This document shows, piece after piece, positions 13,563 through 33,944 of a stretch of DNA of 64,000 nucleotides; position 1 is the stretch's first letter, and every line of letters starts with the position of its first letter. The position numbers and the translations under genes were made by a program. The stretch is taken from contig MKTV01000045.1 of assembly GCA_001898425.1 (NCBI GenBank), positions 152,662 to 216,661 on the forward strand. The letters run 5' to 3'. The stretch is from Rhodospirillales bacterium 69-11. GTDB lineage: Bacteria > Pseudomonadota > Alphaproteobacteria > Acetobacterales > Acetobacteraceae. The notes below the pieces were generated by a model. The model was not told where the DNA came from. It was given only the letters and a program-made list of their open reading frames with translations, and did no database searches.

Positions 13563-16001
13563 TCAGGCCGCGCGAGCGGCCTCGGCCTCCACGACATAGC
13601 GCATGCCGCCTGCGCTCGCATGCAGCTCCAGGATCGTCACGCCGTCGAGCGGCGGCAGCGGCAGCGTCGCGCACCCGTCGGTCCAGCGGGCGAGGGTGCT
13701 GCCGTGCCGCTCGACCGGCCACCAGCCGCGATGCAGGCGGGGGTGGTCGACCGGGATCTCCTCGACCCTGGTCGGGCCGCGCAGCACGATGCGCGTGAGG
13801 TTGACGCCGAGCGTGCGGCGGTCGTCGGACCAGGGCTGCGTGTCGGCCGGAGCGCTGGCGCGCGATTCGATCCGGACCTGCGTTGCGCTGGCCGGCAGCA
13901 CGAACAGGTGCATGCCGTCGCGTGACGTCATGGGGGTCAGGGCCTGCCCCTGGCAGACGAGCCGCAGCGCGGGCTCATTGGTGATGCGGGAGTCGGCCAG
14001 GGTGCGCATCAGCCAGGCACGGTCGGCAAGCCGGCGCCAGGCTTGCTCCACCTCGGCGTCGGAGGTGGCGAAGGGCAGGGGTGACGCCGCGACGTGGCGC
14101 CGCTCCTCCGCTTCGTCGGTCAGGTCGGGATACAGGACGGCGGGCAGGCCGGCATTGGAGAAGAATCCGCGGTTGCCCGTGTCGAGATAGCTTTCGGCGG
14201 GCAGCCCCTCGGCGAGCAGGATCGCGTGCCGGTCGAGTTCGACGTGGAAGTAGTCGACCGTCTCGGCCGCCATGTCCTGCACGATGGTGTCGTGGTTGAT
14301 CAACCGGCGGACCGGGATGAGCCGTCCGTCCAGCAGCACGGCATGGTCGGGAGAGAGCACGAGGTCGCGGTGCGGCACGTCCTGCGCGAAGGCGGAGCGG
14401 CAGATCCGTACCGGAGCGACGGCGGAAGGACGCGGGTGCGCCTGCACGTCCAGGCGGCGCTCGCCGACCCAGCGCACCGTGTGCGGCACGAGGCTGTCCC
14501 CCTCGAGCACCAGCACTTCGTCGCCGGCCGCGAGCGCCTCGACGCGCACCTCTCCGGTTGGGGTCGCGATGTGGGAGCCGCGGGCGTAGCAGACGGTGCT
14601 GAGGAAGATGTCGTAGCCGGAGCCGATCGTGTGGCCGACCGTGTCGCTGTCGAGGCTCAGCACGACGTACGGCGCGGTGGTCGGGCTGGCGAGGGTGATG
14701 GTGCCGAGGACGGTGACGCCGTTGGAGACGCGGATATGGGTGCTGTCGACGAAGGCCACGTCGGTGACCTCACCCTGCACGTTGATGTAGTTGATGCCGC
14801 TGACGTCGTTGGTGGTGGACCCGATGACCATGCCGTCGATGGTGCCGGCGAAGTTCAGCCCGTCCGCCTTGATCTGCACGTCGTTGAGCTCGATCGCGCC
14901 GTGGGATCCGAGGAAGCTGAGCGTGTTTCCTGCGCCGATGGTGCCGTCGAGGCGCATGATCGAGGCAGTGCTGTCGGCGACCTTCAGGCTGGTGCCGGAG
15001 GAGGCGGGGATGTCCACGGCGAGGTCGAGGACACCACCGTTGGCGATGACGTCGCCCGTTCCACTGAGGGTGACCGACGGACCGCCCGCCCGCTTCACCA
15101 CGCCGTACCCGGTCAGGACGCCGTCGGAGAGCAGATACCCATACCCGTCTGAGATGGTGCCGCCCACGAGGTCGATCGTGCCGGCGGAGATCGTCTGCTG
15201 AGACGTGAACGTGACGGATCCGGCGAGTTGGAGGGTCTGGTTGGCGTCGGTGATGGAGATCGTCGGCTGCGAACCCAGCGTGCCTTCCAGACGCAAGGTC
15301 GAGGGCACCGCGGTATCGATGACGAAGGAGGCTTGGGCAGTGGTGTTTCCGAAGACGTCCAGCGTGCCGCCGGACGCACGGATCAGGCTCCCACCCTGGG
15401 GAGTGAGGCTCCCTGCGTCCAGGACGCCGTAGCCGACCAACGACCCACCGAGGGTGAGCGTGCCGTCGACCGTGAGGGTGCCCCCTCCCATCGAAATCGT
15501 GCCTTGCCCGGTATTCCAGCCGCCTGCATCGGCAAAGGTCAGTTCACCGCCCCCGGCGATGGTCAGGGTCTGGCCGTTCAGCTTGAACGCGCTGACGGAG
15601 GCGGTGCCGTCGATCTCGAGATTCGTGTTTGCGGCGTTCACGATGGCCAGGTTCGGCGTTCCGGAGATCGAGCCGAACAGCTTCAGGGTGCCGCCTGACG
15701 CCTGGATCGTGCCGCCGTTCGCGCCGTAGGTCGTCACGTCGAGCGCGCCGAAGCCGGTGACGCTCCCGGCCAGATCGAGTTCCGTGGCGGTGAGCGTATA
15801 TCCGTTCAGCAGGAGCTTGGCCTTGCTGTCGGACACCGTGATCGTCCCGAGTGCAGCCGGGTCGACGTCCAGGGTGACGGTGTATGCGTTGGTCCCCGGC
15901 ATGACGACGCTGTCGCCGGCCCCCGGAACCGTGCCGGTGTTCCAGTTGGACCCGACGCTCCAACTCCCGCTTCCGGATTTCGTCCATGTCAGCGTTGCCA
16001 T
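13563..16001 (-). CDS. Large beta-repeat protein with a C-terminal Hint (autoprocessing) domain
   Basis: The 812-residue product has no signal peptide. Residues 1-455 are Gly/Thr/Ser-rich repeats (GGTL.V.G, LNGYTL, GTISMGGGTL) of the kind that form secreted beta-solenoids; the protein opens LTWTKSGSGSWSVGSNWNTG. At about residue 471 a Hint_2 domain starts with the nucleophilic Cys in VCYARGSHIATPTGEV, followed by AGDEVLVLEG, LSPDHAVLLDG and IPVRRLINHDTI. Hint domains carry out intein- or hedgehog-like self-cleavage. The last ~200 residues form a domain I do not recognise, ending in a VTILELHASAGGMRYVVE strand. The start at 16001 is set by a GGAGGG ribosome site 7 nt upstream. Such proteins are common in Acetobacteraceae; role unknown. 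Confidence 0.85.
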   Translation of the reverse strand: MATLTWTKSGSGSWSVGSNWNTGTVPGAGDSVVMPGTNAYTVTLDVDPAALGTITVSDSKAKLLLNGYTLTATELDLAGSVTGFGALDVTTYGANGGTIQASGGTLKLFGSISGTPNLAIVNAANTNLEIDGTASVSAFKLNGQTLTIAGGGELTFADAGGWNTGQGTISMGGGTLTVDGTLTLGGSLVGYGVLDAGSLTPQGGSLIRASGGTLDVFGNTTAQASFVIDTAVPSTLRLEGTLGSQPTISITDANQTLQLAGSVTFTSQQTISAGTIDLVGGTISDGYGYLLSDGVLTGYGVVKRAGGPSVTLSGTGDVIANGGVLDLAVDIPASSGTSLKVADSTASIMRLDGTIGAGNTLSFLGSHGAIELNDVQIKADGLNFAGTIDGMVIGSTTNDVSGINYINVQGEVTDVAFVDSTHIRVSNGVTVLGTITLASPTTAPYVVLSLDSDTVGHTIGSGYDIFLSTVCYARGSHIATPTGEVRVEALAAGDEVLVLEGDSLVPHTVRWVGERRLDVQAHPRPSAVAPVRICRSAFAQDVPHRDLVLSPDHAVLLDGRLIPVRRLINHDTIVQDMAAETVDYFHVELDRHAILLAEGLPAESYLDTGNRGFFSNAGLPAVLYPDLTDEAEERRHVAASPLPFATSDAEVEQAWRRLADRAWLMRTLADSRITNEPALRLVCQGQALTPMTSRDGMHLFVLPASATQVRIESRASAPADTQPWSDDRRTLGVNLTRIVLRGPTRVEEIPVDHPRLHRGWWPVERHGSTLARWTDGCATLPLPPLDGVTILELHASAGGMRYVVEAEAARAA

Positions 16002-24329: not shown

Positions 24330-25346
24330 CTATGCTGCGACCAGCAGCGCCTCTTCCGCCACCAGCCGGGCATGCTCCTCGGGGGTGAACGCCGGTATCC
24401 CGTAGCGGGCGCGCAGGTCCGATAGCCGCTGCTCCGCCGCCTCCCACAAGCGCCAGCCCGCCAGCAGGTCCACGGTCATCGCCGCGCCGCGGGCGACCGC
24501 GCGGAAGAAGTCGTCGGGCCGCAGGATGCCCTCCGCCACCGGTCCAGGCACGAAGCGCTTGCCAGCATGAAGCTGCACCAGGGCCGGCAGCACGATGTCG
24601 AGGCACATCTCGTCCGTGTTGCCGCCGATGAACCCGGCCAGCAGCAGCTCGCCTTGCAGGTTCGTGTTGTAGTTCGCCAGCACGTGGTAGACCTCGTGCC
24701 GCGCCCAGCCCTCGGGGATGCTCTTGGGCTCGCCGGGCACGGGGAAGCCGTTCATCTCGTAATAGCGATGCACCGCGTAGCCCAGCGTGTCCGGCGGCAG
24801 CCGCGCCAACGCGCGATAGCGGGCGAGCAGCGCATCCTGGCCGAGATACCGGCGCAGGCCCGGAAGCCAGGGCATCATCGGCCAGAGCATGGCCGCCCAG
24901 TCGCGCGCTCCCGCCTTGCCCGTGTAGGACCAGTAGTGGTTCACGAAGCGCGTCATCAGCGCGAACCCGTTGCGGCGGTATTGGCCGAGGGCGATGCGGT
25001 GCAGCAGCGTCAGGCCGAACTCCGAGACGCCAAGGCGGCGCGCCGCGTCCTCCACCACCGCGACCTTGGCGGGCGCGATGGCCGGGTCGATCACCGCGAG
25101 CGCGGCCAGCAGTCGCACCGTGCTCCGCCGCAGCGCCGGGTCGGCGAGCACCTCCGCCAGATCGGCTGGCAGCTTGCCGGGCGTGAGCGGCAGCGGCGGA
25201 TCCTGGCGGAGCAGGTGCCGCTGCGCCGCGGCCACCGACTCGACCTCGAGCGGCAGCGGGGGCACCGCACCCGCGGCCGAAACCACCGCGCTCATGGCCC
25301 GGACGAGGGTCGCGCGCTGCCCGTCCGAAAGCCGCCCGAACTTCAT
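24330..25346 (-). CDS. TerB-like/Coq4-like protein, paralogue B
   Basis: The 338-residue product has two parts. Residues ~10-120 are helical with a TerB-like stretch (TVRLLAALAVIDPAIAPAKVAVVEDAARRLGV). Residues ~125-338 resemble the Coq4 family, with the zinc motif HEVYH-x11-E (His217, Glu218, His221, Glu233); Coq4 itself has HDxxH-x11-E. Other conserved words are YWSYTGKAGARDW, LGYAVHRYYE, PVPGEPKS and FFRAVARGAAM. Coq4 acts in ubiquinone synthesis (C1 oxidative decarboxylation), but this is a longer, different architecture, so its function is open. The start overlaps the stop of the 117-residue gene upstream (ATGA). It is the last gene of the three-gene operon. Confidence 0.75.
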   Translation of the reverse strand: MKFGRLSDGQRATLVRAMSAVVSAAGAVPPLPLEVESVAAAQRHLLRQDPPLPLTPGKLPADLAEVLADPALRRSTVRLLAALAVIDPAIAPAKVAVVEDAARRLGVSEFGLTLLHRIALGQYRRNGFALMTRFVNHYWSYTGKAGARDWAAMLWPMMPWLPGLRRYLGQDALLARYRALARLPPDTLGYAVHRYYEMNGFPVPGEPKSIPEGWARHEVYHVLANYNTNLQGELLLAGFIGGNTDEMCLDIVLPALVQLHAGKRFVPGPVAEGILRPDDFFRAVARGAAMTVDLLAGWRLWEAAEQRLSDLRARYGIPAFTPEEHARLVAEEALLVAA

Positions 25347-25696
25347 GCCGGGAGCGCCGCGAGCGTGCGCAGCGCCGTCTCGGCGTCCTGCCGGACCCGT
25401 TGCGCGAAGACCGGATCGTCGACGCGACTGCCGATCTGGCCGCCATAGGCCGCCTGCTGGGCGGATTTGTGCGTGGGGGAGGGGATGAAGAAGTAGGTGA
25501 AGTGCCGCCCGCGCTCGAGCATCACCTGCAGCAGCGTGTCCATCCCGTCGGATGGGGCGCCGCGGCTGCCCAGCGTGCGGACGGCGATGTCGGGCGGGAT
25601 CTGGATGCCGAGGTCATGCAGCGCCGGCCTCGGGTCGCGCATCAGCGCGCTGCGGAACGCGGCATCCTGCCAGAGGCTCGCGAGCGGACGGGACAT
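25343..25696 (-). CDS. NHLP (nitrile hydratase alpha-like leader)-type small protein
   Basis: The 117-residue protein starts LASLWQDAAFRSALMRDPRP followed by ALHDLGIQIPPDIAVRTL. That pattern (A..DxxFRxxLxxDPxxALxxLGIxxPxxxxVR) is the NHLP fold used as leader in some RiPP precursors and in nitrile hydratase alpha. A stretch TLLQVMLERGRHFTYFFIPSP could be its closing strands. The tail (residues 74-117) is polar, with a second DDPVFAQRVRQDAETALRTL helix. There is no Cys, no Gly-Gly cleavage site and no Ser/Thr-rich core, so a RiPP precursor is doubtful. It overlaps both neighbours (TGATG upstream, ATGA downstream), which implies tight co-production with two Coq4-like proteins. Confidence 0.65.
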   Translation of the reverse strand: MSRPLASLWQDAAFRSALMRDPRPALHDLGIQIPPDIAVRTLGSRGAPSDGMDTLLQVMLERGRHFTYFFIPSPTHKSAQQAAYGGQIGSRVDDPVFAQRVRQDAETALRTLAALPA

Positions 25697-26730
25697 CAGG
25701 CGGCTGCCGCCAGCGTGTAGCCGGGACCGGTCAGCAGCCCGTTATGGCCGACCAGCTCGCGCGTTTCCGCCTCGGAGAATGGCGGGAGGTTGTAGCGGGC
25801 CCGCAGCTCCGGCAGCGGCAGGGCCGCCACGCTCCAGAGATCCCAGCCGTGCATCAGGTCGACGTTGATCTGCGCCCCGCGGGCGACCGCGCGGAAGTAT
25901 TCGTCCGGCCGCAGCACGCCCTCGGTCGCGAACCCGCCGACGATCTGCTTGCCGGCATGATACGAGAGCAGGCCGAACAGCATCTGGTCGAGGCAGGTCT
26001 CCTCCTGCGTGCCGCCGATGAAGCCGGTCAGCAGCAGTTCGGCAGGCAGGCCGAGGCCGTACTCGCTCAGCACGTGATAGACCTCGTGCATCGCCCAGGG
26101 GACGGACTTGGCGTCGCCGGGCAGCGGGATTTCGCTCTCGATGAAGAAGCGGTGCAGCGCGTAACCGAAGGTACCGGGCGGCAGCGCGCCCAGTGCCTGG
26201 TAGCGGGAGAGCAGGGCGCGGTTGCGTTCGGCCGTGCGCTTGCCGTGCAGCTGCGGCAGCATCCACCACACGAAGCTCGCCCAGTCCCGCGGGCGGGCCT
26301 TGCCGGTCGGCGACCAGCATTGCGCGACGAAGCGGGACATCAGGCCCAGGGCGATGCGCTTGATCCGGCCGTGCGCGGCATGGTCGAGGATGGTGAGGCC
26401 GTATTCCCGGATGCCCAGGCGCCGCGCGGCCTCCTGCACCACCGCCACCTTCTGCGGCAGCACCTTGCGATCCACGACCGGCAGCAGGGCGAGCAGGCGC
26501 ACGGTCATGCGGCGCAGCGGCTCGTCCGCCAGGGCGCGCTCGAGGTCGGGCGGCAGCGGCCCGGGGGTCGCCGCGAGCGGCTGCTGCTGCTGCAGCACGT
26601 GGCGCTGGGCGGCGTCGATCGACGCGATCTCGATCGGCAGCGGCGCGATCGTGCCTCCCGCGGAGACCACGGCGTACATGGCCTGGGCGATCGTCGCGGC
26701 CTGGGGCGGGGTGGGGCGGACCAGCTTCAT
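25696..26730 (-). CDS. TerB-like/Coq4-like protein, paralogue A
   Basis: The 344-residue product is colinear with paralogues B and C. The N-terminal helical part has IAPLPIEIASIDAAQRHVL and TVRLLALLPVVDRKVLPQK followed by VAVVQEAARRLGI, which is TerB-like. The C-terminal part has CWSPTGKARPRDW, FGYALHRFF, PLPGDAKS and the motif HEVYH-x11-E (His215, Glu216, His219, Glu231). The start is set at 26730 (MKLVRPTPPQ), matching the start of paralogue C; the frame upstream is Pro/Arg-rich filler. It is the first gene of a three-gene minus-strand operon, overlapping the next gene by one base. The insert LHGKRTAERNR differs from the other copies (LPGLRRYLGQD). Confidence 0.75.
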   Translation of the reverse strand: MKLVRPTPPQAATIAQAMYAVVSAGGTIAPLPIEIASIDAAQRHVLQQQQPLAATPGPLPPDLERALADEPLRRMTVRLLALLPVVDRKVLPQKVAVVQEAARRLGIREYGLTILDHAAHGRIKRIALGLMSRFVAQCWSPTGKARPRDWASFVWWMLPQLHGKRTAERNRALLSRYQALGALPPGTFGYALHRFFIESEIPLPGDAKSVPWAMHEVYHVLSEYGLGLPAELLLTGFIGGTQEETCLDQMLFGLLSYHAGKQIVGGFATEGVLRPDEYFRAVARGAQINVDLMHGWDLWSVAALPLPELRARYNLPPFSEAETRELVGHNGLLTGPGYTLAAAA

Positions 26731-27140
26731 CGGGAGGGCCCTCGGAGCGCCTGCAACGGGCGACGGGGTGCGGCGAGGCGGCGCGGGCGGCCGCCCGGCG
26801 GGCCGGCGCGGGTCGGGCGTGTCGCTTGGTCGGTCATGCACGGTCGCTCATGAATGTCCTTCCCCGGGACGGAGGCTAGCGTCCGACCGGAGCCTCCTGC
26901 AACGCGTTCGTGGTCCGACCGCACCGGCGCGGGCTCCGTGCGCGGAATCGTTCCCATCCATCGTCGACGATGCTACGGTGCCGCAACGCGCGAAGCCAGG
27001 GGGTGTCGACGGTCGCTGCGGCCGCCCGAGCGTTCGCGTGGGACCGCCGGGGGGCCGATGTCCAACTCTGCCGTTCGCGATCGCGGCTCGCCTTCGTGCG
27101 CGAGGCTGTCGACGCAGCGCGAACCTTCGAGAGGTTCGGC
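26731..27140. other. Divergent control region between paralogues A and C
   Basis: This 410-nt gap separates the two divergent transcription units of the Coq4-like cluster. It holds an inverted repeat GGAGGCT/AGCCTCC (26871-26897) and the word GTCCGACCG twice (26881 and 26913). I found no clear promoter hexamers and no extra gene. The plus frame is open through it but lacks conserved content. Confidence 0.4.
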
Positions 27141-28154
27141 GTGAAGCTCATCCACCCCAGCACCGATCAGGCGGCCGCCATCGTGCAGGCGATGCAGGCG
27201 GTGGTGACCGCGGGCGGGCGGATCGCGCCGCTGCCGATCGAGCAGGACAGCCTGCGGGCGATTCAGCGGCATCTGCTGCATGTCGCGGCGGAGCTCACGC
27301 CCGCGGCCGACACCCTGCCGGACGATCTGGCCGCGCGCCTGCCGGGCGAGGTGCTGCGGCGGGAGACGGTGCGCATCCTCGCGCTGCTGCCGCCGATCGA
27401 TCAGCAGGTGCGGCCGGAGAAGGTCGCCGTGGTGGAGGCGGCGGCGCGGCAACTCGGCGTCGAGGATCGCGGCGTGGAGCTCCTGCGCCAAGCCGTGCGC
27501 GGCCAGCACAAGCGCATGGCCATGAGCATGATGCGGCGTTCGGTCGCGCATTACTGGTCGCCCACGGGCAAGGCGCGGCTGCGCGACTGGCTGGACATGG
27601 TGCGCATCATGTTGCCGCCGATCCCCGGCATCTACTCGATGCTGCGCAACGAGGCCCTGCTCGCGAAATACCAGGCGCTGGGCCGCAAGCCGGCCACCAC
27701 GCTGGGTTACGCGCTGCATCGCTTCTACATGGAGCGCGGCTTTCCGCTGCCGGGGGAGCCCAAGAGCTTCCCCGAGGGCTGGGGCAAGCACGAGGTCTAC
27801 CACGTGCTCAGCGAGTACGATTCGACGCTGCAGGGTGAGATGCTCAATGCGGCGTTCAGCGGCGGCAACACCGAGAAGCTCTGCATGGACCTGCTGCTGG
27901 CGACGCTGCTGCAATTCCAGGCCGGCCGCCAGATCCTGCCAGGCCCGCACCCGACCGGCTTGCTGCAGCCCGACGCGTTCTTTCGCGCCGTCGCACGCGG
28001 TGCGGCGATGAACGTGGACCTGCTGGCCGGCGCCTGGAACATTTGGAGCGTGGTGGACACGCCGCTCGACGAGTTGCGCATCCGGTTCGGAATTCCGTTG
28101 CTCAGCGACGACGAACGTACCAACTTGATCCGGGCGGAGGCGCTGATCGTCTGA
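27141..28154 (+). CDS. TerB-like/Coq4-like protein, paralogue C
   Basis: The 337-residue product has the same build: RIAPLPIEQDSLRAIQRHLL, TVRILALLPPIDQQVRPEK and VAVVEAAARQLGV in the TerB-like part. HYWSPTGKARLRDW, LGYALHRFYMERGFPLPGEP and HEVYH-x11-E (His217, Glu218, His221, Glu233) follow in the Coq4-like part. The GTG at 27141 is chosen because VKLIHPSTDQAAAIVQAM aligns with the first residues of A and B and a GAGAGG site precedes it. It is transcribed away from the A/NHLP/B operon. Keeping all motif residues in all three copies argues that each is active. Confidence 0.75.
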   Translation: MKLIHPSTDQAAAIVQAMQAVVTAGGRIAPLPIEQDSLRAIQRHLLHVAAELTPAADTLPDDLAARLPGEVLRRETVRILALLPPIDQQVRPEKVAVVEAAARQLGVEDRGVELLRQAVRGQHKRMAMSMMRRSVAHYWSPTGKARLRDWLDMVRIMLPPIPGIYSMLRNEALLAKYQALGRKPATTLGYALHRFYMERGFPLPGEPKSFPEGWGKHEVYHVLSEYDSTLQGEMLNAAFSGGNTEKLCMDLLLATLLQFQAGRQILPGPHPTGLLQPDAFFRAVARGAAMNVDLLAGAWNIWSVVDTPLDELRIRFGIPLLSDDERTNLIRAEALIV

Positions 28155-28352: not shown

Positions 28353-29426
28353 ATGAAACGCCTGCTGGTCCTGCTCGTCCTGCTGGCCGCGATCGGCGGC
28401 GGCTACGTCTATTGGGAAAAGACGACCTCGAAAGCCCCGGTCGCGGCGTCGCAGCCGCCGGTCAGCGTCTCGACCGTGCCCGTGAAGATCGCGCCGATGG
28501 TGGACAGCATCGCGGCCTACGGCAACCTCGTCTCCCGCCGCGCGGTGAACCTCTCGCCTGAGACTCCCGGCGTGGTGCGGGAGATCCTGTTCGCCGACGG
28601 GCAGAAGGTTTCGCCCGGCGCGCCGCTCGTGCGCATGGATAGCAGCATCGCCGAGGCGCAGCTGCAGTCGGCCCGCGCGCAGGCCGACACCGACATGCAG
28701 AATCTCCGCCGCATCCAGACGCTCGCGCGGCAGGGACTCGATTCGACGTCCTCGCTCGAACAGGCGCAGTCGCGCGCCTCGGCCTCCCAGGCGGACGTGA
28801 AGATCAACGAGCGCAAGCTCTGGCAGCTCACGCTGCGGGCCCCGTTCGCCGGCACACTCGGCTCGCGCAAGGTGGATGTCGGCGCCTTCGTCAATGGCGG
28901 CGAGACGATCGTGCGGCTCGAGGACACGAGCGAGCTGCAGATCGAGTTCCGGATGCCGAGCGAGGTGGCGCCGAAGGTGCATGAGCGCATGCCGGTGCAT
29001 ATCACGCTGCCCGGCAGTGACGAGGCGCTCACCGGCGCGCTCACTTTCATCGACCCCACCGTCTCGACCGACACGCGGTCGGTCCTGTTGCGCGCGGTGG
29101 TGGAGAACCAGACCACCGCGGTGCGGCCCGGCCTGTTCGTGAAGGTGGCGCTGGACCTGGCGGTCCACCCGGAGGCGCTGGTCGTGCCGGTCGACGCGAT
29201 CACGAGCGAGCTTGCCTCGGCCTATGTCTTCGTCGTGGACGACAAGTCGGTGGCCCGCAAGCGGACGGTGACGCTGGGCCTCAGCGACGGTTCGCAGGTC
29301 GAGGTGCTCGACGGCCTGCGGGCCGGCGACGCGGTCGTCACGATCGGCCAGTTCCGCCTGCGTGACGGCGATACCGTGAAGGTCGTGCCGGCGGACGAGG
29401 GCAAGGCCGCGAAGGGCGCGACCTGA
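28353..29426 (+). CDS. RND efflux periplasmic adaptor (membrane fusion protein)
   Basis: The 357-residue product is an HlyD/AcrA-family adaptor. It has an N-terminal membrane anchor (MKRLLVLLVLLAAIGGGYVYW), a biotinyl-lipoyl-like segment (VSRRAVNLSPETPGVVREIL), a helical hairpin region and LRAPFAGTLGSRKVDVGAFV. The beta-barrel IEFRMPSEVAPKV and a C-terminal membrane-proximal part close it. It links the inner-membrane pump to the outer-membrane channel. The stop overlaps the pump start (TGATG), the standard adaptor-pump-channel order. The substrates are unknown; the adaptor has no lipobox, being anchored by a helix. Confidence 0.93.
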   Translation: MKRLLVLLVLLAAIGGGYVYWEKTTSKAPVAASQPPVSVSTVPVKIAPMVDSIAAYGNLVSRRAVNLSPETPGVVREILFADGQKVSPGAPLVRMDSSIAEAQLQSARAQADTDMQNLRRIQTLARQGLDSTSSLEQAQSRASASQADVKINERKLWQLTLRAPFAGTLGSRKVDVGAFVNGGETIVRLEDTSELQIEFRMPSEVAPKVHERMPVHITLPGSDEALTGALTFIDPTVSTDTRSVLLRAVVENQTTAVRPGLFVKVALDLAVHPEALVVPVDAITSELASAYVFVVDDKSVARKRTVTLGLSDGSQVEVLDGLRAGDAVVTIGQFRLRDGDTVKVVPADEGKAAKGAT

Positions 29427-32400
29427 TGTGGCTCTCCAATTTCTGCATCCGCCGGCCCGTCTTCACCATCGTCATCAACCTGATGCTGATGGTGATGGGG
29501 CTCTGGTCGGTGCAGAATCTGCAGATCCGCCAGTTCCCCCGCCTCGTGCTGCCCAGCGTCACCGTGGTGACCGCGCTCGCCGGCGCGGACCCCGAACTGA
29601 TCGAACGTGAGGTCACCGCGCAGCTCGAAGCGGCGATCGGCGCGGCCTCGGGCATCGAGACGATGACTTCGACGAGCCAGGCGGGGCTCAGCACCATCCA
29701 GGTGAACTTCAACGCCGGGGTCGATCCGAACGCCGCGCTGAACGACGTGCGCGCCAAGGTGTCGGCGGCGCAGGGCAAGCTGCCGCCCGGCATCATCCCG
29801 CCGGTGATCACCCAGGTCAGTACCGATGGGCAGCCGGTGCTGTACCTCGCCTTCGCGGATGCGAGCCTGAGCGACATGGCGGTGACCGCCTTCGTGCAGC
29901 GGGAGATGGTGCCGCGGCTGACCGGCATCCCCGGCGTGGCCCAGGCACAGCTGATCGGCGACCGGAAATACGCGATCCGCCTGCAGCTCGATCCGGTGCG
30001 GATGGCCGCGTACGGCGTGACCGTGCAGGACGTGAAGACGGCGCTGACCGAACAGAACATCGAGACGCCGGGCGGGCAGATCCGCCGCACCCAGGATTCG
30101 GTCTCCGTGCTGGTCGACACCTCGCTCGACGACCCGGCCGAGTTCAACGGCATGACGCTGCGCCGCGGCAGGGACGGGTTCCTGATCCGCCTGTCCGATA
30201 TTGGCAAGGCGGTGGTCGGCCCCGACCAGACGCTCACCACCTTCCGCTACGGCGGCAAGTCGGCCGTGGCGGTAGGGCTGGTGCCGCAATCCACCGCCAA
30301 CCCGCTGGATATCAGCGCGGCCGCCAATGCGATGCTGCCGGAGCTGCGGGCCGCGGCGCCGCCCGGCATGGTGATCGAGAATTCCTTCGACACCTCGGGG
30401 CCCGTGAAGGATTCGGTCGAGGAAGTCGCCAAGACCGTCTTCATCGCGACCGCCCTCGTGCTGCTGGTGATCCTGGGTTTCATCGGCTCGCTGCGCACCA
30501 GCCTAATCCCGATGGTCACCATCCCGCTCTCGCTGCTGGGCACGCTGGTCTTCGCCGACCTGCTGGGATTCTCCATCAACATCTTCTCCCTGCTCGCGAT
30601 GGTGCTGGCGGTCGGGCTCGTGGTCGACGACGCGATCGTCGAGGTGGAGAACGTGCAGCGCCACGTCGATGCCGGCATGAGTGCGATGGACGCCACCTTC
30701 AAGGGCAGCCAGGAGGTGGGGTTCGCGGTGATCGCGACCACCATCACGCTGGCCTCGGTGTTCGCCCCGATGGGGCTGGCCGGCGGCACGATCGGGCAGA
30801 TCTTCCGCGAGTTCGCCTTCACGCTGGCGATCGCCATCCTGCTGTCGGGCTTCATCGCCCGCACGCTCTCGCCGATGATGTGCGGGCGTTTCGTCTATCC
30901 GCAGCACCCCGGCGGCTACGCGGCCTGGATCACGCGGCAGACCGATCGCGTGGCGCAGGCGTACCGGCGGATGATCATGCGGGTGCTCGATCATCGCTGG
31001 GTGGTCGTGTTGGGCGTGGTCGCGGTGATTGCGCTGACCGGCTTCGTGGCCGGCAAGATCCCCGGATCGGTGTCGGCCAACGAGGACAATGCCTACGTGG
31101 TGCTGAAGTTCGATGCACCGCCCACCGCGAGCCTCGCCTACATCGCCGACTGGACCTCCCGGGCCGAGGCGATCATGAAGCGTGATCCCGACGTCGCCTC
31201 CACGCTCGTGATGATCGGCATGCCGCTGCAGAACGAGGCGATGTCGATCGTCTCGTTCAAGCCCTGGGGCGAGCGCAGCCGCACCTCGACCCAGATCACC
31301 AACGACATCATGGCCAAGCTCGCCGAACTGCCCGGCCTGTTGCCGACGATCTACGCCTCCGACCCGCTGGCGGGCGTGGGCGGCGGGCAGCCGGTGCAAT
31401 GGATCCTGGAGACGTCGAACGACTACCAGTCCCTTGCCGCGGCGGCAGGGGCGGTGATCGATGCCAGCCGCCACGCCAAGTCGGTGCAGAACGTCACCGT
31501 CGACCTGCACATGAACACGCCGAAGGTGATGGTCGCGGTCGACCGCGCCGCGGCTGCCGACGTGGGCGTGCCGGTCGCGACGATCGGGGCGACGATCCAA
31601 TCGCTGTTCGGTGGCCAGCGCGCCTCCACCTTCGTCTACCGCGGCGACATCTACAACGTCATCATCGAGCTGCCCGCCGACCTGGCGGCCAAGTCGGCCA
31701 CGCTCGACAGCGTCTACGTCACGAGCCGCAGCGGCGACCTGATCCCGCTGCGCTCGATGATCGACATCACCCATGGCGCGGGCGCGGCCGTGCTCGCACG
31801 CACCGACCAGCTCAACTCCGCGACCCTGGGCGCGGATCCGGTGCCCGGACACAGCGTGCAGGAAGCGACGGCGGAGCTGAAGGAGATCGCGCAATCCGTG
31901 CTGCCGCCCGGCGTGCGGATCACCGGCAGCGCGGCGGTGAAGGCGATGGAGCAGTCGGCCGCCGGCATGGGCCTGGTGATGCTGCTGGCGATCGTCTTCA
32001 TCTACCTGGTGCTGAGCGCGCAGTTCGAGAGCTTCCGCGACCCGGTGATCATCCTGACGATCGTGCCGCTGACGATCTGCGGCGCCATCGTCGGGCTGTT
32101 CCTGTTCGGCGGCACCTACAATCTCTACAGCGGCATCGGCTTCATCGCCCTGGTCGGGCTCATCGCCAAGCACGGCATCCTGATCGTGGAATTCACCAAC
32201 CAGCTGCGCGACCAGGGCATGAGCCTGCACGACGCGCTGGTCGAGGCGGCGACCCTGCGGTTCCGCCCCATCATCATGACCACGATCGCGACGGTGCTGG
32301 GCGCGATCCCGCTGGCGCTCGCCACCGGTGCGGGGGCAGGGGGGAGGTCGGAGATCGGCATCGTGCTCACTGCCGGCATGAGCTTCGGCACGCTTGTCTC

Positions 32401-32518
32401 GCTGTTCATCCTGCCGGCGTTCTACTCGCTGCTGGCGAAGCGCGTCCGCCACCCGCTGGTACCGGTCCCGGACTTCCTGTTGACGGACGCGACGATGGGC
32501 AAGCATGCGGCTGAATAA
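29426..32518 (+). CDS. RND-family multidrug efflux pump (HAE1/AcrB-like permease)
   Basis: The 1030-residue protein has the RND pattern: MWLSNFCIRRPVFTIVINLM, one helix, a large periplasmic loop, six helices, and the same again. The proton-relay acids lie in LAVGLVVDDAIVEVENV and the partner Lys in LVGLIAKHGILIVEFTNQ. It exports hydrophobic compounds using the proton gradient. It overlaps the adaptor by one base and the TolC-like gene by 14 nt, so the three form a coupled operon. No local regulator (TetR/LysR) is present. Confidence 0.95.
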   Translation: MWLSNFCIRRPVFTIVINLMLMVMGLWSVQNLQIRQFPRLVLPSVTVVTALAGADPELIEREVTAQLEAAIGAASGIETMTSTSQAGLSTIQVNFNAGVDPNAALNDVRAKVSAAQGKLPPGIIPPVITQVSTDGQPVLYLAFADASLSDMAVTAFVQREMVPRLTGIPGVAQAQLIGDRKYAIRLQLDPVRMAAYGVTVQDVKTALTEQNIETPGGQIRRTQDSVSVLVDTSLDDPAEFNGMTLRRGRDGFLIRLSDIGKAVVGPDQTLTTFRYGGKSAVAVGLVPQSTANPLDISAAANAMLPELRAAAPPGMVIENSFDTSGPVKDSVEEVAKTVFIATALVLLVILGFIGSLRTSLIPMVTIPLSLLGTLVFADLLGFSINIFSLLAMVLAVGLVVDDAIVEVENVQRHVDAGMSAMDATFKGSQEVGFAVIATTITLASVFAPMGLAGGTIGQIFREFAFTLAIAILLSGFIARTLSPMMCGRFVYPQHPGGYAAWITRQTDRVAQAYRRMIMRVLDHRWVVVLGVVAVIALTGFVAGKIPGSVSANEDNAYVVLKFDAPPTASLAYIADWTSRAEAIMKRDPDVASTLVMIGMPLQNEAMSIVSFKPWGERSRTSTQITNDIMAKLAELPGLLPTIYASDPLAGVGGGQPVQWILETSNDYQSLAAAAGAVIDASRHAKSVQNVTVDLHMNTPKVMVAVDRAAAADVGVPVATIGATIQSLFGGQRASTFVYRGDIYNVIIELPADLAAKSATLDSVYVTSRSGDLIPLRSMIDITHGAGAAVLARTDQLNSATLGADPVPGHSVQEATAELKEIAQSVLPPGVRITGSAAVKAMEQSAAGMGLVMLLAIVFIYLVLSAQFESFRDPVIILTIVPLTICGAIVGLFLFGGTYNLYSGIGFIALVGLIAKHGILIVEFTNQLRDQGMSLHDALVEAATLRFRPIIMTTIATVLGAIPLALATGAGAGGRSEIGIVLTAGMSFGTLVSLFILPAFYSLLAKRVRHPLVPVPDFLLTDATMGKHAAE

Positions 32519-33944
32519 GCGCGACTCACGGTCCGGCGCCCCGGACCGTCCGCATCATGCGCCCGCGCCTGCGCCGCTGGCACCGCGCCCGCGCCGCGTC
32601 TGGCTGGTGGCCCTCGGCATGCTGGCGCTGACGGTCCGCCCCGCTTCCGCCGACACGCTGCAGGACGCGCTCGCGCATGCCTACGCCTACAACACCGATC
32701 TGGTCGCAGCGCGCGCGCATCTGCGCAGCGTGGACGAGCAGGTGCCCCAGGCGCTGTCCGGCTGGCGGCCGTCGGTCACGGTGAATGGCGGCAGCGGCTA
32801 CCAGACGTTCAACACCAACACGAGCCGGCTGATCCCCGCGCCGTTCGGCTACCAGCAGTACTACATCGGCGGCAACGTGCAGCTAAAGCAGCCGCTCTAT
32901 TCCGGCGGCGGCACGGTGGCCGGCGTCGCGCAGGCCGAAGCGAACGTGCGCGCCGCGCGCGCGGACCTGCTGGGCACCGAGCAGACCGTGCTGATGAACG
33001 CGGCGACGGCGTATGACGACGTGCTGCGCAGCCGCGCGCTGACCGCGCTGAACCGCGAGATCGAGGTGCTGCTGCGCCGGAAGCTGCGCGAGATCACCAT
33101 CCGCAAGGACGCGGGCCAGCTCACGCAGACCGATATCGACCAGACCGCAAGCCGCCTGGCCGCGGCGTCCGCCAACCGCATCACCGCCGAGGGCAATCTC
33201 GCCGCGGCCGATGCGCGCTTCATCGCCGCCGTCGGCCGCCCGCCGCAGGAGGGCATGGCGGTGCATGGGCTGCCGCCGATCATGCCGCGGAATGTCGGGG
33301 AGGCGATCCGCCTCGCCGAGGCGAACAGCCCGACCGTGATTGCGAGCCTGTTCCGCCTGGATGCGGCGCAGCAGGCGATCACCGTCGCCCGCGCCTCGCT
33401 GATGCCCAATCTCAGCCTGCAGGCCCAGGCGGGCAAGGATCAGGGGCAGAGCGTGCCGACGGTGGCGACGAACTCCGCGAGCCTGACGCTCAACCTCAGC
33501 GTGCCGATCTACCAGGGCGGCGCCGCCTCCTCCAAGCTGCGCCAGGCCAAGGCCGATGCGGCGGAATCGCAGATCAAGACGCTGAGTTCCCGCCGCGATG
33601 CGCGGAAGAACGCCGAGGCGGCCTTCGCCACCTGGCGCGCCGCGGTGGACCGGCTCGCCCAGGAGCAGATCCAGGTCAAGCTCGCCGAATCCGCCTATGA
33701 CGGCGTGCGCAAGGAAGCCGCGCTCGGGGCCAAATCCACGTTCGAGCTGCTGGGCCAGTTGCAGGAACTGTTCAACGCCCGCACCAACGAGGTGCAGGCG
33801 CGCTACGACGTCTCCTCCAACGCCTATCAGCTCCTGGTGGCGATCGGCCGGTTCACTGCCGCCGACCTGCGGCTGCGGGTGCAGGCGTTCGACCCGACCG
33901 AGAACTACAACCAGGTGCGCAACGCCGCGTCGCCCTTTCCCTGA
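32505..33944 (+). CDS. TolC-family outer-membrane efflux channel
   Basis: The 479-residue product is a TolC-family protein. A long positively charged N-terminus leads into a signal segment (VWLVALGMLALTVRPASA), then DTLQDALAHAYAYNTDLVAARAHLR. Two coiled-coil repeats follow with NVQLKQPLYSGGGTVAGVAQAEANV and LNLSVPIYQGGAASSKLRQAKADA, the two conserved turn strands. The ATG at 32505 lies inside the pump gene; an internal start at the hydrophobic segment is possible and would give a more usual signal peptide. It supplies the outer-membrane duct for the efflux system upstream. Confidence 0.93.
   Translation: MRLNKRDSRSGAPDRPHHAPAPAPLAPRPRRVWLVALGMLALTVRPASADTLQDALAHAYAYNTDLVAARAHLRSVDEQVPQALSGWRPSVTVNGGSGYQTFNTNTSRLIPAPFGYQQYYIGGNVQLKQPLYSGGGTVAGVAQAEANVRAARADLLGTEQTVLMNAATAYDDVLRSRALTALNREIEVLLRRKLREITIRKDAGQLTQTDIDQTASRLAAASANRITAEGNLAAADARFIAAVGRPPQEGMAVHGLPPIMPRNVGEAIRLAEANSPTVIASLFRLDAAQQAITVARASLMPNLSLQAQAGKDQGQSVPTVATNSASLTLNLSVPIYQGGAASSKLRQAKADAAESQIKTLSSRRDARKNAEAAFATWRAAVDRLAQEQIQVKLAESAYDGVRKEAALGAKSTFELLGQLQELFNARTNEVQARYDVSSNAYQLLVAIGRFTAADLRLRVQAFDPTENYNQVRNAASPFP

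Follow-up and report, generated by a model that had tools for sequence, protein, structure and literature searches.

A Gene Set of Three Coq4-Like Paralogues and a Small Partner

What would an alphaproteobacterium do with three paralogous proteins that each join a TerB-like half to a Coq4-like half, accompanied by a small NHLP-like protein, at a locus with no Coq genes among the annotated neighbors? Essentially a single function is established for Coq4, and the set described here carries a natural, fixed variant of it, in which the acidic residue of the HDxxH motif is changed from Asp to Glu. The variant occurs in three copies, each fused to a TerB-type domain, alongside a protein of the NHLP clan and in linkage with an efflux pump, and a core role in ubiquinone synthesis is unlikely. 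We analyzed a window of 64,000 nucleotides on contig MKTV01000045.1 of Rhodospirillales bacterium 69-11, and all coordinates are positions in this window (Table 1). No description of the four-gene set was found in the literature searched, in agreement with the suggestion of the first-pass annotation that the system is undescribed.

Table 1. Features of the gene set and of the adjoining efflux operon
Feature	Position	Strand	Remarks
Gene A, 338 aa	24330-25346	-	TerB-fold N-half ~1-120; Coq4-like C-half ~173-319
Gene A putative active-site residues			H217, E218, H221, E233, C248, D250
Gene N, 117 aa, NHLP/nitrile-hydratase-alpha-like	25343-25696	-	Lacks cysteine and a variable core
Gene B, 344 aa, paralogue of A	25696-26730	-	HEVYH-x11-E at 215-231
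33-base block, candidate promoter or operator	26950-26982		Divergent B/C gap; conserved in 3/3 carrier genomes
Gene C, 337 aa, paralogue of A and B	27141-28154	+	GTG start; divergent from B
RND periplasmic adaptor (MFP)	28353-29426	+	Linkage to the set seen in 3/3 carriers
RND inner-membrane pump, generic multidrug type	29426-32518	+	
TolC-family outer-membrane channel	32505-33944	+	

The positions and common architecture first proposed for the three paralogues are correct, and end-to-end identity to A over the full length is 54% for B and 52% for C. An ATG was preferred as the start of gene B over a GTG further upstream, and B is 2 residues shorter than A immediately ahead of the HEVYH motif. 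Genes B and N overlap by 1 base (TGATG) and genes N and A by 4 bases (ATGA); in all carriers, the cistrons of B, N, and A follow one another with overlaps or almost no gap. We found no Shine-Dalgarno-like stretch ahead of N or A, and therefore both probably rely on translational coupling, as had been proposed for N. The 33-base block between B and C (GTTCCCATCC...GATGCTACGNTGCC) occurs only once in the window. Rfam, sigma-70, and terminator scans of the locus returned no matches, and the set had no match in PHROGs, among PADLOC anti-phage models at 0.01, or in a tblastn search against plasmids.

Domain Architecture and a Clade-Wide Change in the Metal Motif

Each of the three proteins is a paralogue with a TerB-fold N-half and a C-half of the Coq4 superfamily. 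A family profile built from 13 sequences and searched against the PDB matched Coq4-like 3MSQ (E 2.8e-8) and Alr8543/6E12 (8.8e-6) with its C-half and TerB-like 2H5N (0.0024) with its N-half. Aligning nine A/B/C sequences with five alphaproteobacterial Coq4 sequences in hhalign, one of the five verified as Pfam Coq4 (E 9.8e-21), gave 96.6% with an E value of 6.4e-10 and placed HEVYH on HDIWH. The Coq4-like assignment made earlier thus holds, and the prospect that this part would prove unrelated to Coq4 did not come true. The same is true of the TerB-like N-terminus: the AF2 model of the N-half matched 2H5N (PG1108) in VIA-align with a Z of 10.5 (rmsd 3.2 over 107) and 2OU3 (Npun_F6341) with a Z of 8.4, the next match standing at 4.8. 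The fold is the same as in these two proteins, but here no ter operon was seen and the Pfam TerB cut-off (PF05099) was not reached, with only two members of the wider family matching, at a best E of 0.013. Against the curated Pfam Coq4 cut-off of 22.9 bits (PF05019), A scored 11.9 and B and C had no match, and none of the three matched an NCBIfam model at E values up to 10. The AF2 model of A has a pLDDT of 75 to 95 for residues 1 to 110 and mostly below 50 in the C-half, so we make no claim about metal-site geometry.

The HEVYH-x11-E motif is present in A, B, C, and every orthologue, and arises in 1 of 200,000 shuffles of A. All nine members of the A/B/C clade carry HExxH-x11-E, compared with HDxxH-x11-E in all 17 relatives, which comprise 12 two-part (TerB plus Coq4) proteins and 5 Coq4 sequences. 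The Asp-to-Glu change characterizes the clade as a whole and is not a loss of the motif, which bears out the contrast drawn from the single locus. Further residues are fixed and clade specific, both by the motif (Y220, C248, and D250) and ahead of it (K208, S209, and W214). Compared with Coq4, the homologous C-half keeps the positions that are universal to the A/B/C and HDxxH/Coq4 groups (H217, H221, and E233 of the motif, Y226, G189, and R312), but has Glu for Asp, a new Cys248 and Asp250, a fused TerB-fold half, and three paralogues outside a ubiquinone context. Between our genome (G000) and G023, the Coq4 half is the best conserved part (80 to 89% identity over residues 181 to 270), compared with 57 to 72% for the TerB half.

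Distribution and Evolution

The set is real, intact, and narrowly distributed. It is present in 3 of 33 genomes of the genus (our own genome, G000, plus G030 and G023), so that the search proposed earlier for the same genes elsewhere yielded two more, syntenic sets. All three carriers share the order B-N-A, divergent C, and then MFP-RND-TolC, with the G023 copy spread over two contigs that break inside C. The block is flanked by rpsB-tsf in G000 and G030, and the other flank differs in G023. NG86 dN/dS values lie between 0.08 and 0.36 across the four genes of the set and those of the pump, which indicates purifying selection. These values and the open reading frames led us to reject a degenerate set, and the outcome that would have counted against the system, genes found nowhere else and decaying, did not materialize. 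Only G022 has a badly damaged remnant, and of C alone (L026, G022:C604, 122-492), in which residues 94 to 180 (71% identical) are followed by 303 to 337; the part with the metal motif has been deleted and the 5' end is gone. The three orthologous sets, together with one copy in decay, make it possible to test directly what a non-ubiquinone branch of Coq4 does.

Phylogenetically, A, B, and C fall into three separate supported clades that repeat one internal branching order (G023, then G000 with G030), and therefore the triplication predates the split of these species. Retention of each as a supported clade suggests that three separate functions were kept. Our genome encodes five family members in total, the other two being lone HDxxH paralogues (p1 and p2). 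Full-length two-part relatives were found in just one further genus (G100, G314, and G392) across a class sample of 385 genomes, and three more genomes with one such relative each were found in an order sample of 395; all two-part relatives outside the A/B/C clade carry HDxxH. These single TerB plus Coq4 proteins, found in this analysis (p1, p2, G100, G314, G392, G914, and G1022), share the architecture of A, B, and C at approximately 28 to 36% identity, but have the HDxxH form, lie near thiolase, SDR, glycosyltransferase, or RND genes, and have no NHLP partner.

Linkage to an RND Efflux Operon

In each of the three carriers, C is next to an RND operon; like the additional HDxxH paralogues of our genome and the other clade-specific active-site residues, this operon goes beyond the features described in the first-pass annotation. 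The C-to-pump gaps of 158 to 361 bases are no proof of one transcript. The pump adaptor is found in all three carriers and in 1 of 30 other genomes of the genus (7e-4 if independent). Because the set and the pump genes are physically linked, this co-occurrence is weak evidence of shared function, and both may simply have been inherited together as one block. One genome, G024, has MFP-RND-TolC without the A/B/C/N set (L076, G024:C7, 3489-8879), with an adaptor that is 61% identical. Multidrug RND models match the pump far better than heavy-metal ones.

An NHLP-Like Protein Unlike a Standard Precursor

The small protein N was described as NHLP-like, and sequence comparisons agree, with every score below curated cut-offs. 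Its best NCBIfam match is the Os17-type model NF038399 (8.6e-7, and 1.1e-8 for the G030 copy), followed by TIGR03793 (9.9e-7), and it also matches Pfam NHase_alpha (4.6e-5). The bit scores fall below both curated cut-offs (29 versus 40 for the Os17 model and 28.5 versus 50.9 for TIGR03793). A profile search of the PDB matched nitrile hydratase (4.9e-6) and the NHLP leader 8TB1 (2.4e-4). With zero cysteines, N lacks the CxxCSC metal site of the nitrile hydratase alpha subunit. Foldseek returned no significant match for N, and in VIA-align its best Z of 5.8 (LptE) is too low to trust, with no nitrile hydratase or NHLP chain among the matches listed. The assignment to the NHLP/nitrile-hydratase-alpha clan therefore rests on sequence.

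In NHLP precursors, a double-Gly site precedes a hypervariable tail rich in Cys, Ser, and Thr (PMC2887384). In N, the double Gly is GG in two of the three carriers and GE in G023, and the tail is 62% and 50% identical between genomes, contains 3 to 10% Cys/Ser/Thr, and is modeled by AF2 as a confident helix. A C39 peptidase (PF03412) was absent from all three carriers with positive controls, although G023 is only 68% complete. A role of N as a standard NHLP precursor is disfavored because the tail is conserved and poor in Cys, Ser, and Thr, GG is not conserved, and the carriers are without a C39 peptidase. N shares its nitrile-hydratase-alpha-type helix motif with both NHLP precursors (TIGR03793) and the Os17/Os1348 type (NF038399). 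Os1348/PosA likewise has no double-Gly site and lies beside modifying enzymes and efflux genes, but Os1348 is an all-helical protein of 85 aa, and N has 117 aa, with a conserved helical tail and no core rich in Cys, Ser, and Thr.

N is restricted to carriers, with no copy in the noncarrier genomes of the genus that were searched. For G030, N is known from the locus itself rather than from this distribution search. Weak matches (7-8e-4) from two distant genomes lie in frames of about 230 aa that resemble nitrile hydratase alpha. By eye, the C-terminal helix of N (DPVFAQRVRQD...AL) resembles the NHLP motif-1 helix of its own N-terminus, as in a possible internal repeat; the 26-residue piece alone had no NCBIfam match, and we do not claim such a repeat.

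Possible Functions of the Set

We tentatively favor, as the best of several explanations, a trio of metal-dependent enzymes whose substrate would be a small hydrophobic or aromatic molecule, with N serving as an adaptor and the pump for export. The metal site of the Coq4 domain would have been retuned once, from HD to HE with the addition of Cys248 and Asp250, ahead of the triplication. A, B, and C would then act jointly as three sister enzymes, possibly in a complex with N as a cotranslated adaptor or small subunit. The substrate may be prenyl-, acyl-, or quinone-like, the reaction closest to that of Coq4 would be a divalent-metal-dependent decarboxylation, and the product, or a toxic precursor, could exit through the adjoining RND-MFP-TolC pump. 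COQ4 is a Zn-dependent C1 decarboxylase for which HDxxH-x11-E is required (PMC7615680), and Nostoc Alr8543 binds Mg via this motif in a structure that holds a lipid, oleic acid (PMC9774615). This explanation is suggested by the homology of the C-half to Coq4, in which shared residues are kept and which is the best conserved half, and by purifying selection on all genes together with three supported clades. It also draws on the presence of N only in carriers, on the pump adjoining C in all of them, and on the lipid-type genes (SDR and thiolase) that adjoin HDxxH relatives: these relatives lie near SDR genes in G100, G314, G1022, and G1035, with a thiolase directly before the gene in G314. Counting against the adaptor role, the clan of N is best known for substrates of enzymes, a trait that such a role does not need. 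N also provides a test of whether proteins of the NHLP fold can act as enzyme partners rather than precursors.

A close rival, in itself rather unlikely, turns these roles around, such that N would be the substrate in a RiPP-like pathway, A, B, and C would be Coq4-fold HExxH modifiers guided by the NHLP-type fold, and the pump would export the product or a piece of it. The Asp-to-Glu change makes the Coq4 motif a literal HExxH, N has the Os17 model as its best NCBIfam match, and it shares one cistron run with B and A in all carriers. Precedent exists in the Pseudomonas pfl/pos (Os17) clusters, where the HEXXH enzymes PflC/PosC hydroxylate and cut the NHLP-type PflA/PosA, which have no double-Gly site (PMC12636437), and cluster OS3 is located upstream of efflux genes (PMC7726476). 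An HExxH motif and an NHLP-type partner gene are common to A, B, and C and the alpha-KG-dependent HEXXH RiPP enzymes (PflC, PosC, and ChlH; IPR026337), but no NCBIfam homology was detected and the A/B/C motif derives from Coq4 HDxxH. Since A, B, and C are without an NCBIfam match, their likeness to the HEXXH enzymes looks convergent, which counts against N as substrate. So do the conserved, helical, Cys/Ser/Thr-poor tail in place of a variable core, the GE of G023, the missing C39 peptidase, the scores of N under curated cut-offs, and the three strands in the model of N compared with the all-helical Os1348. YcaO, radical SAM, and MNIO proteins were not seen among the annotated neighbors. We consider it unlikely that A, B, and C modify or cleave N, which would make them the first enzymes of the Coq4 fold with a ribosomally made protein as their target; if true, this would be a new class of posttranslational modification that evolved from a quinone-pathway enzyme.

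Less probable again is a module for metal or redox stress, in which the TerB-like and Coq4-like halves would be noncatalytic sensors or buffers of metal or membrane lipids, N would be a regulator or partner, and the pump would remove the stressor. The TerB-fold half, the divergent promoter region with its conserved block, and the linked pump would all suit such a module. Conservation peaks around the putative active site, where the extra fixed residues also lie, and three diverged paralogues suit enzymes better than one sensor. Other ter genes were not found among the annotated neighbors, and the multidrug character of the pump also argues against this explanation.

For ubiquinone, we searched our own genome and 20 others of the genus, some of them incomplete. 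UbiD was found in none of the 21, Coq4 above the Pfam cut-off was absent from our genome and present only in G015 among the others, and the A/B/C/N set was absent from those same 20 genomes. As both the set and UbiD are missing from the genus at large, the core ubiquinone decarboxylase is unlikely to be encoded by the set, and the earlier view that standard coenzyme Q duty is improbable gains support. The genus must use another route, such as the UbiN-type route known in alphaproteobacteria (PMC10626278). That A, B, and C form an alternative C1 decarboxylase set replacing UbiD is thus very improbable: COQ4 performs this step in animals and our genome has neither UbiD nor Coq4 above the Pfam cut-off, but 20 genomes without UbiD are also without the set, and three copies and N would be left unexplained.

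Surroundings of the HDxxH Relatives

The HDxxH relatives of another genus (L042, L044, and L045) have a molybdopterin dehydrogenase pair and a conserved 261-aa SDR alongside, with a thiolase directly before the gene in L044. In our own genome, p2 (L021, 7290-14069) also has an RND operon nearby, beyond a TPR gene, and p1 (L020, 126-7953) follows a glycosyltransferase run, an epimerase, and a radical-SAM/B12 protein, a location that is kept in G030 (L024). Elsewhere in the window, a 779-aa protein with a Hint domain is encoded at 13563-15902.
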